Source: Gemmatimonadota bacterium
Lineage (GTDB): Bacteria > Gemmatimonadota > Gemmatimonadetes > Palauibacterales > Palauibacteraceae
DNA length: 52,934 nucleotides
Direction of reading: 5' to 3'
NCBI GenBank assembly: GCA_021295785.1
Contig: JAGWBR010000008.1
Span: 1 to 52,934, forward strand
A program made the translations under genes and the position numbers. Each line of letters starts with the position of its first letter. The first letter of the stretch is position 1. Under the pieces are notes generated by a model. The model was given only the letters and a program-made list of their open reading frames with translations. It had not been told where the DNA came from and searched no databases. Positions 74-43,029 of the stretch are shown one piece after another.

Positions 74-1357
74 CTAGACCCAAGCCGGCCCGGTCCGGAC
101 GACGCGTCCCCGCACCGCGGATTCGACACAATCGGGCAAACCCCCAAACACTACCCCCCGCCCCAAGAGCCCTGGCGCGTAGTAGGCGTATTTGGCGGAA
201 TTGGTCATGATGGTCCGGATCTCGTCCGGGAGCATCGGCGAGGTGAGGATGCAGGTGTCGACAGTGATTTCGGCCCCGAAATCCCTTGCAACCGCCAGCG
301 TCCCGTTTAGTCGGGCCAGTTGGGCGACCGCCCGCCCGGTGGTCACAAGCAACCTCACCTCTGGATGGCGCCGTTTGCCGCGTGCCAGTTCGGCGAGGGC
401 GCCGAATTCGGCGAGCGAAAAATGCGGGCTCCCGAGCACCACCATGTCGATTTCTCCCGGCGCACCGGCCCCGGGCGAGCCAAGGGCGTCGCGCGCCCCG
501 GACAGGTCGGCCGCGGTCGGACGGAGGGGCCTGTCGAGTGCCGCCTCCAGCGCTGTAGCGTCCCCGCCGAACGCGTCGGCCAGGGTCGCGGCTTCGGGCG
601 TAACGTCGGGCCAGTGAAACATCGCTACCGCCCCCGAGGATGCCATTGCCGCCCCCAGCGCTTTGAGGTCGTCTTCGGACGGAGTGATGTCCAAGCCGTG
701 AAAGACCGGGACGGATCCGCCCGCCTCGAGCCCCGTCCAGTGTCCGAGCACGGGAAAGAACGCGGGATCCCCAAAAACGGCGGCAGGCAACGCGGCGAGG
801 TCCACCAGAACCTCTCCGGCCCGGTTGGACGAGAGGTGCAGCCCGGCGGCCGGGGCACGCCCGGTCACCGCGCAACAAATGTCCAGCAGATCGGGATACC
901 GCTCGGTCCGGGCCCCCAACACCGAGTTCACGAACACAGTCGCACTCGACTCGCCCCAAGCCACCTGTTCGCCCGGGGCGGGGCGCGGCTCTGTCTGGTA
1001 CGGGGCGCAGGTCCAGGTCGGCCTGCATCCCATTTGCTCGTAGGCCTTCATCTGTGCCAGCGCGCCGCTGGCCCATTCTTCCGGCACCTCCCAACCCCGC
1101 CACCCGTTTTCGTCAACGCCCGCCACGTTGAGGGTGGACGGTACCCGGACCCTTGCGCCGCCGTCGGCCAGACGCCGGGCAAATTCGAGGGTGGCCGGGC
1201 CCTGATACAGCGACGAATCGATGTGTGCGCCGGAGATATCCAGCATACGCTCCGCCCCGATCAGTCTGGCCGATTCGGAGAGGATGCGCATCGCCATCGC
1301 CGTTCCCTCGCCCCGCTCACCGGCCAGCATCGACCGGTCGCGGTCTGAGAGCGTCAG
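74..1357 (-). CDS. aconitase X (AcnX) large/catalytic subunit, DUF521 family
   Basis: The protein matches the DUF521 (AcnX) catalytic family, whose members dehydrate cis-3-hydroxy-L-proline (bacteria) or phosphomevalonate (archaea) with an Fe-S centre. Family landmarks are the N-terminal LxLxxxxxxMLAGERGEG stretch, the SSATVFVNSVLGARTERY segment and the DICCAVTGRAP segment, which supplies cysteines. The length is 427 aa and no DUF126 small domain is fused; a separate small subunit could lie outside the window. The first ATG is at 1330, but the conserved N-terminus begins upstream, so I place the start at CTG 1357, which overlaps the TGA of the preceding M20 gene as CTGA. The tight coupling suggests that the two enzymes act on one substrate set, for example release and then dehydration of a modified amino acid (inference). 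Substrate is unknown. Confidence 0.85.
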   Translation of the reverse strand: MTLSDRDRSMLAGERGEGTAMAMRILSESARLIGAERMLDISGAHIDSSLYQGPATLEFARRLADGGARVRVPSTLNVAGVDENGWRGWEVPEEWASGALAQMKAYEQMGCRPTWTCAPYQTEPRPAPGEQVAWGESSATVFVNSVLGARTERYPDLLDICCAVTGRAPAAGLHLSSNRAGEVLVDLAALPAAVFGDPAFFPVLGHWTGLEAGGSVPVFHGLDITPSEDDLKALGAAMASSGAVAMFHWPDVTPEAATLADAFGGDATALEAALDRPLRPTAADLSGARDALGSPGAGAPGEIDMVVLGSPHFSLAEFGALAELARGKRRHPEVRLLVTTGRAVAQLARLNGTLAVARDFGAEITVDTCILTSPMLPDEIRTIMTNSAKYAYYAPGLLGRGVVFGGLPDCVESAVRGRVVRTGPAWV

Positions 1358-40862: not shown

Positions 40863-41327
40863 ATGGATTCAGGGCAGGTTCGGGTCGCCGGCCGCGGGGG
40901 CCGTCTGGCAGTGGGCTCAAGGGCGGTGCTGTGGTGCGTGCTGGGAGCGGGCGCCCTGCAGGCGTGCGCAGCCTCGTCACGCCTGGGGCGGTACTCAGGG
41001 GTGATCATAGACGGGGCGGACGTGCGTGCCGCCGGGCAGGCCACTGCGCTGGAGGCACTGCGCAACCACCGCGACATCATTGTCAACGAGACCCGAATCG
41101 GGTTCAAGGGCGGCGACGATTATGCGTTCGGCTCGGCCCGCCAGGCGTATTACATCCCCCTGTTGGCGGTGGACGGTGTAATTGGGGTGGGGCAACCAGT
41201 TTCGGTGCTTGGGCGCATCTCGGCGGACGAGCTCTTGTATATCCGGCTGTATCGGGGCAGCGAAGTGCCGCCTCAGTACCGCCGCGACGGTTATGGCCGG
41301 GGTTTGATTGAGGTTGTAACAAACTGA
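40863..41327 (+). CDS. plug-like hypothetical lipoprotein
   Basis: The 154-aa protein has a basic N-terminus, a hydrophobic stretch (VLWCVLGAGALQAC) ending in a lipobox Cys, and a globular part. The last 40 residues (ELLYIRLYRGSEVPPQYRRDGYGRGLIEVVTN) resemble the plug-like end of TonB-dependent receptors and of small Gemmatimonadota lipoproteins (pattern YRR-x-GYGRGLIEV-x-T). Function is unknown. It is preceded by ctp with one base between them, and its stop overlaps the next gene as CTGA. Confidence 0.65.
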   Translation: MDSGQVRVAGRGGRLAVGSRAVLWCVLGAGALQACAASSRLGRYSGVIIDGADVRAAGQATALEALRNHRDIIVNETRIGFKGGDDYAFGSARQAYYIPLLAVDGVIGVGQPVSVLGRISADELLYIRLYRGSEVPPQYRRDGYGRGLIEVVTN

Positions 41328-42025
41328 ACGCGGACGGGCCGTCGCCCGCGGCCTTCCGCCTGATGGTGTTCGGCAGGCTCCCCGAGCCGGGCCGAACCAA
41401 AACCCGTTTGATTCCCGGCCTGGGTGCAGAGGGTGCCGCCCTGCTGTACCAAGCCTTCCTCGATGACGCGATGGCTGTCTCCCAGAGGGCGGACCGCGGC
41501 ATCGAATCAGAGTTGTGGGTGCCGCACCGTCCCGGGGCTGTCGCAACGCTTGCCGCGAGGTATCCCGGCGCCCGGATACGCATCCAGCCCGGCGGCAGCC
41601 TCGGCGACCGGTTGCGGGCGGCGTTCGACCGTGCCTTCACCGAAGGATGTCAGGCCGCCGTCGCGCAGGGGAGCGACCACCCCACCCTCCCCCCCGCGTT
41701 CCTGGCGCAAGCGAGGATGGCGTTGGAGTCAGGTGCTGATATCGTGGTGTGTCCGGCCGCCGACGGGGGCTATTGCCTGATTGGTCTGCCCGCCCGTGTG
41801 TGGCCTGCCGCGGGCGGCCTGTTTGCAAACGACGCCCCCTGGTCCGCGCCGCGGCTGCTGCAATGGACCCGGCGAACCGCCGCGGAACTGGGCCTTGAAT
41901 GGTCGGAACTGCCGGGGTGGTACGACGTGGATGAACCCGAAGATCTGCCGCGGTTGCAACAGGACATGCGCCCGGAGACGGCTACCGCGGCGGCCTGGGC
42001 GGCGGTTGCCGTGGCCGTCCGCTGA
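41324..42025 (+). CDS. DUF2064 glycosyltransferase-like (TIGR04282-type) protein
   Basis: A nucleotidyltransferase/glycosyltransferase-A fold protein. The N-terminal signature RLMVFGRLPEPGRTKTRL, the QGSDHPTLP segment (donor-metal region) and the CPAADGGYCLIGL segment match the DUF2064 family, annotated in part as arsenosugar-type glycosyltransferases. ATG 41363 would cut into the first beta-strand, and upstream in-frame codons encode family-like residues, so I place the start at CTG 41324 in a CTGA overlap with the previous stop. The length would be 233 aa. The next gene also starts in a CTGA overlap. Substrate is unknown. Confidence 0.85.
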   Translation: MNADGPSPAAFRLMVFGRLPEPGRTKTRLIPGLGAEGAALLYQAFLDDAMAVSQRADRGIESELWVPHRPGAVATLAARYPGARIRIQPGGSLGDRLRAAFDRAFTEGCQAAVAQGSDHPTLPPAFLAQARMALESGADIVVCPAADGGYCLIGLPARVWPAAGGLFANDAPWSAPRLLQWTRRTAAELGLEWSELPGWYDVDEPEDLPRLQQDMRPETATAAAWAAVAVAVR

Positions 42026-43029
42026 CAGCGGCGCATCCCCCCGTCCGGGTTGTTCTGACCCGGGCGGGCGCGGCGGAGTCCGAACATCTGGTACACGGAG
42101 TTGTGTGCGGACCGGAGGGTGACCCGATCATCAGATGGGGTTCGCCGGAACGCGTCATATTCTGGCGTTCTTCCATGAAACCCTTCCAGGCCCTGCCATC
42201 GGTGCGCGCCGGCGTTTTCGACGCACTCGGGCTCGGGACCGACGCGCTCGCCATTGCTTGCTCGTCCCATTACGGCGCGTCCAGACACGTTGATACCGTC
42301 CGGGCGGTTTTGGCGGCATCGGGTGTGGACCAGCACGCGCTGGCCTGCGGGCCTCACAGACCCTTCGACGAGGCCTCGGCCAGGGCGATGGACAAAGCGG
42401 GTCGGCTGCCGGAGTCGGTTCACAACAACTGCTCGGGGAAGCACGCCGCGATGCTGGCCCTTGCCAGGCGCATGCGGTGGGATACGGGGGGCTATGAGAC
42501 CTATGTCCACGGCGTGCAGGACCTGGTCAGGAAAGAACTCTCTCATTGGTTGGGGACCGATGCCGAGCTGCTTCACTGGGGCGTTGACGGGTGCGGAACT
42601 CCCACGCCGGCCCTGCCGATCCTCGAAATGGGTCGCGCATACGCGAGGCTGGCGGCTGCCGCGCGCGGGGACGACAAACATGCCGCGGTAGTTGTCAGCG
42701 CGATGACAGCCCATCCTATCTTGATCGGTGGAGAGGCCGCGCTGTCCACTGGCCTGGTCAGAGCCACGGCCGGCCGGTTGTTGGGCAAGGAGGGGGCGGA
42801 AGGTGTATTCTGCGCTGCTTTTCCGTCAGATGAGCCAAGTGAGACATGGGGTGCAGCTTTCAAGGTCGCGGACGGAGCCATGCGGGCGGTCGGCCCGGCC
42901 GCGATCAAGGCACTAACCGACGGGGGATTCCTCAGATCGGCAGAGCGCGAGGCGCTGGCCAGGTTTGCGAGTCCGCCGGAGAGGAACACTGTCGGCACGG
43001 CAGTGGGGGCGCTCTACGCCGAGGACTAG
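42022..43029 (+). CDS. L-asparaginase II family protein
   Basis: Member of the bacterial asparaginase group PF06089: RSSMKPFQALP, CSSHYGASRHVDTV, NNCSGKHAAMLAL and SAMTAHPILIGG are family segments. The family N-terminus with its R-x-G-x-x-E-S-x-H-x-x-x-G motif is encoded upstream of the first GTG (42103), as TRAGAAESEHLVHG. The gene must therefore start further up. No ATG, GTG or TTG exists there in frame; CTG 42022 overlaps the previous stop as CTGA and is the likely start, giving 335 aa. Followed directly by obg. Confidence 0.88.
   Translation: MTAAHPPVRVVLTRAGAAESEHLVHGVVCGPEGDPIIRWGSPERVIFWRSSMKPFQALPSVRAGVFDALGLGTDALAIACSSHYGASRHVDTVRAVLAASGVDQHALACGPHRPFDEASARAMDKAGRLPESVHNNCSGKHAAMLALARRMRWDTGGYETYVHGVQDLVRKELSHWLGTDAELLHWGVDGCGTPTPALPILEMGRAYARLAAAARGDDKHAAVVVSAMTAHPILIGGEAALSTGLVRATAGRLLGKEGAEGVFCAAFPSDEPSETWGAAFKVADGAMRAVGPAAIKALTDGGFLRSAEREALARFASPPERNTVGTAVGALYAED

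Follow-up and report, generated by a model that had tools for sequence, protein, structure and literature searches.

Probable use of CTG as a minor fourth start codon in a Gemmatimonadota lineage

Results and discussion

The DUF2064 and asparaginase genes and their CTGA junctions

The window, the whole stretch of 52,934 nucleotides that was analysed, is contig C13 of a draft Gemmatimonadota genome (2.18 Mb, 36 contigs, 85% complete). The gene order at the locus is S41 peptidase, a 154-residue protein without an assigned family, a DUF2064 (TIGR04282) protein, asparaginase II (PF06089) and Obg GTPase. ATG, GTG and TTG are referred to as standard starts throughout. The features concerned are:

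40863-41327, forward strand: upstream gene of 154 residues, unmatched in Pfam and NCBIfam, with a TGA (41325-41327) that overlaps the DUF2064 CTG
41310-41314, forward strand: GAGGT, Shine-Dalgarno-like, 9 nt before CTG 41324
41324-41327, forward strand: CTGA stop-start overlap, proposed CTG start of DUF2064
41324-42025, forward strand: DUF2064/TIGR04282 glycosyltransferase-like gene, proposed extent
41363-41365, forward strand: first ATG of the DUF2064 frame, the rival start, one codon inside TIGR04282
42022-42025, forward strand: CTGA stop-start overlap, proposed CTG start of asparaginase
42022-43029, forward strand: asparaginase II (PF06089) gene, proposed extent
42103-42105, forward strand: GTG, the first standard start of the asparaginase frame, 81 nt past the CTG, at residue 28 and 18 residues into the profile match

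A sequence-only reading of this DNA had claimed that two tandem genes start at CTG codons lying in CTGA overlaps. Both overlaps were confirmed: at each, two bases of the CTG belong to the TGA of the preceding gene, and the CTG is in phase with the next gene, 41324 with the DUF2064 stop at 42023-42025 and 42022 with the asparaginase stop at 43027-43029. As both proposed starts are CTG, neither junction belongs to the -4 nt overlap pairs defined by an ATG, GTG or TTG start. The remark that other junctions use ATGA, GTGA and TTGA also held, since these are common: the TGA pairs in the -4 frame number 38 with A, 53 with G, 19 with T and 38 with C in the 970,761 bases of the studied genome that were covered.

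The case is strongest for asparaginase, whose top named matches by score come from Gemmatimonadales and Gemmatimonadetes metagenome-assembled genomes (MAGs). The PF06089 match is full-length and far above its cut-off (349.2 bits against 25, E 2.5e-104, profile 1-320 of 322), and its first position falls on residue 10 of the frame read from CTG 42022, 27 nt after that codon. The frame is open from 41935 and offers its first standard start only at GTG 42103, and the only NTG or ATN codons preceding the profile start (42049) are CTG 41995 and CTG 42022. No standard start is thus compatible with the conserved N-terminus, and the claim that family-conserved sequence is encoded ahead of the first standard start is borne out, with 18 match residues preceding the GTG. 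No Shine-Dalgarno-like motif from our own list was found upstream of CTG 42022. On profile and frame, this codon is strongly indicated as the likely asparaginase start.

For DUF2064 the same claim stands in a weaker form. The TIGR04282 match is above its cut-off (151.4 bits against 134, profile 1-189 of 189), its position 1 corresponds to residue 13 (codon CTG 41360) and ATG 41363 to residue 14, so that the profile itself loses only one position if translation starts at the ATG. The R-L pair before the strand (RLxxFGRLPEPG), which that start would drop, is kept in all 15 same-genus relatives that yielded a match (G004 gave none). In G007, G012 and G015 a CTG at -12 is the only NTG in the open frame ahead of the profile; it lies 33, 19 and 27 nt, respectively, past the stop of a gene ending in EVNTR and shares no bases with that stop. 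The other relatives offer varied starts, namely the same CTG together with a GTG at -48 in G009, a TTG at -27 in nine relatives, a GTG in G002 and both an ATG and a GTG in G006. With moderate confidence we regard CTG 41324 as the likely DUF2064 start. The predicted truncation applies to asparaginase under a gene finder limited to ATG, GTG and TTG, while DUF2064 could start at ATG 41363.

The asparaginase site in relatives

An NTGA about 21 nt ahead of the asparaginase profile recurs among relatives with any of the four bases as N:

GTGA: G024, G030, G025 and G022 (L004, L006, L008, L009)
TTGA: G029 and G026 (L002, L005)
ATGA: G017
CTGA: G023, G018, G020 and G040-G044

The expected conservation of the overlap is thus supported as far as the tetranucleotide goes; that its TGA is the actual stop of an upstream gene holds for the studied locus. 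The congeners G017 and G023 carry ATGAGT and CTGAGT at the same site, both with GGAGG 6 nt upstream. All six genomes of the genus g5 (G020, G040-G044) have the CTG at -21 with GGAGG 5-7 nt before it, and in G044 no standard start occurs between this codon and the profile start. The frame ending at the -21 CTGA of G044 is open for just 5 codons, and a frame of 70 codons or more ends at a second CTGA, at -39. Rival standard codons are a GTG at the profile start in G018, an ATG at -6 in G020, G040, G042 and G043, a TTG at -6 in G041 and a TTG at -45 in G044. In a further named MAG (L071) the CTG is the sole NTG ahead of the profile in the open frame and is preceded by GGAGG at 5 nt.

The pgsA start within the genus

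All 16 same-genus relatives carry a CTG as the homologous first codon of pgsA, directly before NLPN or KLPN. Each has a Shine-Dalgarno-like motif 6-7 nt upstream, GGAG in 14 and GGGGG in 2, the latter having joined our motif list only once the pgsA sequences had been inspected. In five of them (G004, G006, G013, G014, G015) the frame is shut by a stop 15-30 nt upstream and contains no standard start up to +44; in the remaining 11 the nearest upstream ATG or GTG lies at -102 or -105, within the previous gene. The CTG overlaps the TGA of that gene (its frame reading ...GDPH*) in 13 of the 16. The three without overlap are G004, G006 and G013, whose CTG follows the end of the previous gene by about 30, 18 and 90 nt, respectively, and the motif is present in each. 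The pgsA of the studied genome itself has two CTGs, one within a CTGA and the other 12 nt later at the homologous place. In the sister genus g2 (G017, G023) the homologous codon is GTG, with a TTG 12 nt upstream. It is these relatives, pgsA above all, that make CTG initiation convincing.

The CTG-NLPN word occurs in 29 of 394 genomes of the class, 15 of this genus and 14 outside it. With G298 left out because the word sits at a contig edge, all 13 outside genomes have an in-frame ATG or GTG, the nearest 3-15 nt upstream, so that the CTG there is most simply an internal leucine; the word outside the genus was accordingly dropped as a sign of wider CTG use. The corresponding word with A, G or T in place of the first C is found in 74 of the 394 genomes, of which the upstream starts were read in five and in a few family members.

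In two genomes of another family, G136 and G142 (L375, L376), pgsA has a TTGA start with the same 4-nt overlap with a similar upstream protein.

Further candidate genes

The window holds a third CTGA junction:

1354-1357, reverse strand: CTGA junction, proposed CTG start (at 1357) of aconitase X
74-1357, reverse strand: aconitase X gene; PF04412 aligns from its position 2 at residue 2, ahead of the first ATG (residue 10)

Across the studied genome, the genes at CTGA junctions in which a profile begins before the first downstream standard start, with none in frame within 60 nt upstream, are pgsA, aconitase X, a UvrD-like gene and an M20 peptidase; the M20 case rests on NCBIfam models scoring below their cut-offs. 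By the same profile criterion MoeB, a glycosyltransferase 4 (GT4) and thymidine kinase have a CTG that shares no bases with a stop. In MoeB the CTG is preceded by AGGAGG at 7 nt and falls within the final stretch of the previous gene, sharing no bases with its TAG. The GT4 codon stands 9 nt past the previous stop with GAGG upstream, in a frame closed 9 nt upstream, and NF053787 position 2 falls on residue 2 at a score below the model cut-off. No motif of our list precedes the thymidine kinase CTG. In all, 8 well-supported CTG starts were counted among 748 called genes (45% of the genome), or 11 with the weaker ones; this is about 1% and some 45 times the published bacterial share.

The four CTGA genes above are among the 12 CTG-only pairs counted below, several others of which did not qualify. 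PdxA and PdxJ have profile matches before the downstream standard start, yet standard codons occur at -33 and -24, respectively, inside the previous gene; the DUF2064, RluA-like and HMGL-like proteins have a standard codon within 3 residues of the profile start, and the Diphthami_syn_2 protein has a GTG at the profile start itself.

In the single-contig genome G035, from another family, a CTGA overlap marks the putative start of an SDR gene (L235:13129-13956, forward strand). This gene matches its profile from residue 2, and its next standard start is residue 63 with the nearest upstream at -63. CTG starts may extend beyond the studied family.

Junction counts against chance and a control replicon

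Genes were predicted with our own codon-usage gene caller, which gave the 748 genes in 970,761 bases of the studied genome; S. meliloti pSymB served as the control replicon and, its stretches being nearly unannotated, was used through the same caller only. Of 166 unambiguous ATG starts in the studied genome, 46 have a motif of the Shine-Dalgarno-like list upstream, compared with 19 of 166 internal controls.

In the studied genome 108 of 294 co-directional pairs have a C ahead of the TGA, so a CTGA by itself is unsurprising and the absent standard start is what counts. Pairs in the -4 frame with C and no standard start nearby by a fixed rule (CTG-only pairs) make up 12 of 38, compared with 6 of 47 for the other frame (Fisher p 0.033), and 10 of 34 against 5 of 44 if the window is left out (p 0.043). 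The asparaginase of the window is outside these 12 because its codon-usage onset is late, and the profiles of two that are among them, an abhydrolase and an outer-membrane protein, were uninformative. No excess was seen over pSymB, where the counts are 3 of 14 (p 0.36) and 0 of 16 in the other frame. The comparison genomes gave 2 of 16 (G026), 1 of 10 (G035, the SDR gene described above), 0 of 1 (G013) and 0 of 5 (G018); one of the two G026 cases is a TPR protein with matches beginning before the next standard codon.

Short open leaders lacking a standard start number 23 of 251 in the studied genome (15 with CTG) and 7 of 156 in pSymB (4 with CTG), and the CTG cases show no clear excess between the two (15/251 vs 4/156, p 0.086). 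The corresponding figures are 7 of 114 in G013 (4 with CTG), 0 of 24 in G018, 6 of 139 in G026 (5) and 6 of 105 in G035 (2). Since the counts are weak against pSymB, the case rests on profiles and orthologues. In all three CTG-only cases of pSymB an ATG lies at or ahead of the profile start, and the profiles tell the studied genome from pSymB better than the counts do.

Codon counts near predicted onsets had no power in the studied genome (CTG in 60 of 131 windows that lack a standard start, or 0.46, and in a share of 0.39 where one is present). Start-codon weights estimated by expectation-maximization (EM) from the onsets of codon usage were discarded, as the estimate favoured codons disliked in coding sequence, and a pairwise stop-to-stop frame comparison with sampled relatives was discarded as too noisy.

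Initiation machinery

All 45 tRNA places found in the 85%-complete genome were typed. Four have the CAU anticodon, and the two of these that are of initiator type keep the GGG/CCC anticodon stem, so no altered initiator stem was found; among the 45 there is no initiator-like tRNA with a CAG anticodon, the sole CAG being a tRNA-Leu. In G005 (same genus), G017, G020 and G037 the 16S rRNA agrees with that of E. coli at G1338, A1339 and the CCUCC tail, while the 16S sequence of the studied genome ends before this region. Where they are seen, the sites in tRNA and 16S rRNA that are reported to set CUG discrimination thus look ordinary. IF3 aligns with E. coli IF3, the sole comparison, over its length and differs at two arginines among the positions selected for comparison (R129M and R147E), and nothing is claimed from this.

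In the studied genome and in the same-genus genomes G001, G002, G008 and G012 the 16S match is either interrupted or stops near model position 546 or 873, which may reflect insertion, masking or assembly breaks.

Interpretation

The sequence, the frames, the profile alignments and the conservation among orthologues are direct observations. From these we infer initiation at the CTG codons, the amino acid inserted there and the coupling between genes. A ribosome finishing DUF2064 would restart at the overlapping CTG 42022 with the initiator tRNA, inserting formylmethionine, and DUF2064 would most likely be initiated in the same way at CTG 41324, perhaps helped by the upstream GAGGT. Elsewhere in the lineage CTG starts could be placed by a Shine-Dalgarno-like motif, the overlap being unnecessary. 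We thus consider it very probable that this Gemmatimonadota lineage has CTG as a minor fourth start codon, that asparaginase is translated from CTG 42022 by termination-reinitiation and DUF2064 most likely from CTG 41324, and that the overlap is not required.

The idea that stop-start coupling is what makes a poor codon usable holds only in part, as the overlap appears to be one setting among others. An obligatory coupling, with CTG functional only where it overlaps the previous stop, would agree with both junction genes, with aconitase X, with 13 of the 16 pgsA genes and with the lack of a listed motif before CTG 42022; yet as a general rule it finds no support in the motif-bearing pgsA of G004, G006 and G013, in MoeB and the GT4 gene, each with a motif, or in DUF2064 of G007, G012 and G015, in none of which the CTG shares bases with a stop, and we regard it as unlikely. 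Less probable still is that the two proteins start at ATG 41363 and GTG 42103 and that the residues upstream are untranslated relics. Both codons exist and the ATG comes just one profile position late, but asparaginase would lose the first 18 residues of its profile match and DUF2064 the R-L pair kept by every same-genus orthologue.

Two further explanations seem barely plausible to us. Errors of sequencing or draft assembly might conceal a standard start or frame, and the genome is indeed a draft, with runs of N in two of the sequence stretches analysed (L140 and L148); against this, separate genomes have the CTG at the same homologous position (pgsA, 16 of 16) and a CTG case is found in the one-contig genome G035. 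Frameshifting at the CTGA could yield a DUF2064-asparaginase fusion, given that the two frames overlap across 41935-42025, but pgsA retains its CTG in relatives whose previous gene ends 18-90 nt earlier.

More tentatively, in a proposal that may nearly as well be right as wrong, the genus might have adopted CUG as a regular fourth start for about 1% of its genes, including housekeeping genes such as pgsA (16 of 16), with the known discrimination sites apparently unchanged. This could have come about through a so far unknown change in initiation or through purely local motif or overlap context, possibly as a throttle governed by IF3.

CTG is a start codon very rarely used by bacteria, and here it probably initiates two adjacent genes and other genes in relatives. 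A gene finder limited to ATG, GTG and TTG truncates these proteins or sets their starts wrongly, and CUG use is all but invisible to surveys that rely on such annotation.

Relation to known systems

CUG mismatches the CAU anticodon at the first position, as do GUG and UUG. The codons described here share that mismatch with the rare CUG starts of other bacteria and differ from them in that pgsA carries CTG in 16 of 16 same-genus relatives. According to the available part of one study, CUG accounts for 0.024% of bacterial initiation codons and its expression in E. coli is 0.86% of that of AUG (PMC11497404). In the accessible text of two others, CTG was not enriched among mycobacterial reporters (0.03%; PMC4633059), and switches to CUG numbered 4 among 68,906 reconstructed starts (2 of 61,358 AUG, 1 of 5,080 GUG and 1 of 2,468 UUG; PMC5622118). 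The tRNA-fMet M1 and 16S G1338A variants loosen CUG discrimination in E. coli, as far as the excerpted text of PMC11497404 goes, and would predict CUG use; here, in contrast, the GGG/CCC stem is kept, as are G1338 and A1339 in four relatives. If true, the genus-wide CUG start of pgsA would offer a natural system for asking why CUG is so much less frequent than GUG and UUG, which the same excerpted text calls an open question.

Overlaps of -4 nt of the NTGA type with termination-reinitiation are common in prokaryotes (PMC12548453, PMC6728339 and PMC10666635, from the portions available), and the geometry is the same here, an NTG start and a TGA stop sharing two bases. Those portions name ATGA, GTGA or a generic NTGA, whereas the junctions here are CTGA; word searches of them returned no match for CTGA in PMC6728339, CTG in PMC10666635 or CUG in PMC12548453. 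Among open PMC papers, with subscription papers mostly outside the search, we found no report of CTG starts in Gemmatimonadota, and none of CTGA overlaps was recognised among the matches listed.

By analogy, Streptomyces sigR would be the nearest precedent for a genus-wide non-standard start behind a strong ribosome-binding site. In the available part of PMC5472188 its GTC start is conserved in 32 of 34 species, lies in a coupled operon and is repressed by IF3. The likeness is that a whole genus keeps a non-standard start behind such a site; sigR differs as a single gene with GTC, experimental proof and a regulatory role, whereas here several genes with CTG are known from sequence alone.

A separate observation concerns contig C14 of the same genome. 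There the frame GVKIVARNRKARREYEV (L151:10992-11504, forward strand), which we take to be SmpB-like, has no ATG, GTG or TTG between the upstream stop and a point 50 nt beyond its coding onset, and the near-cognate codons present are ATC, AAG and ATT only.
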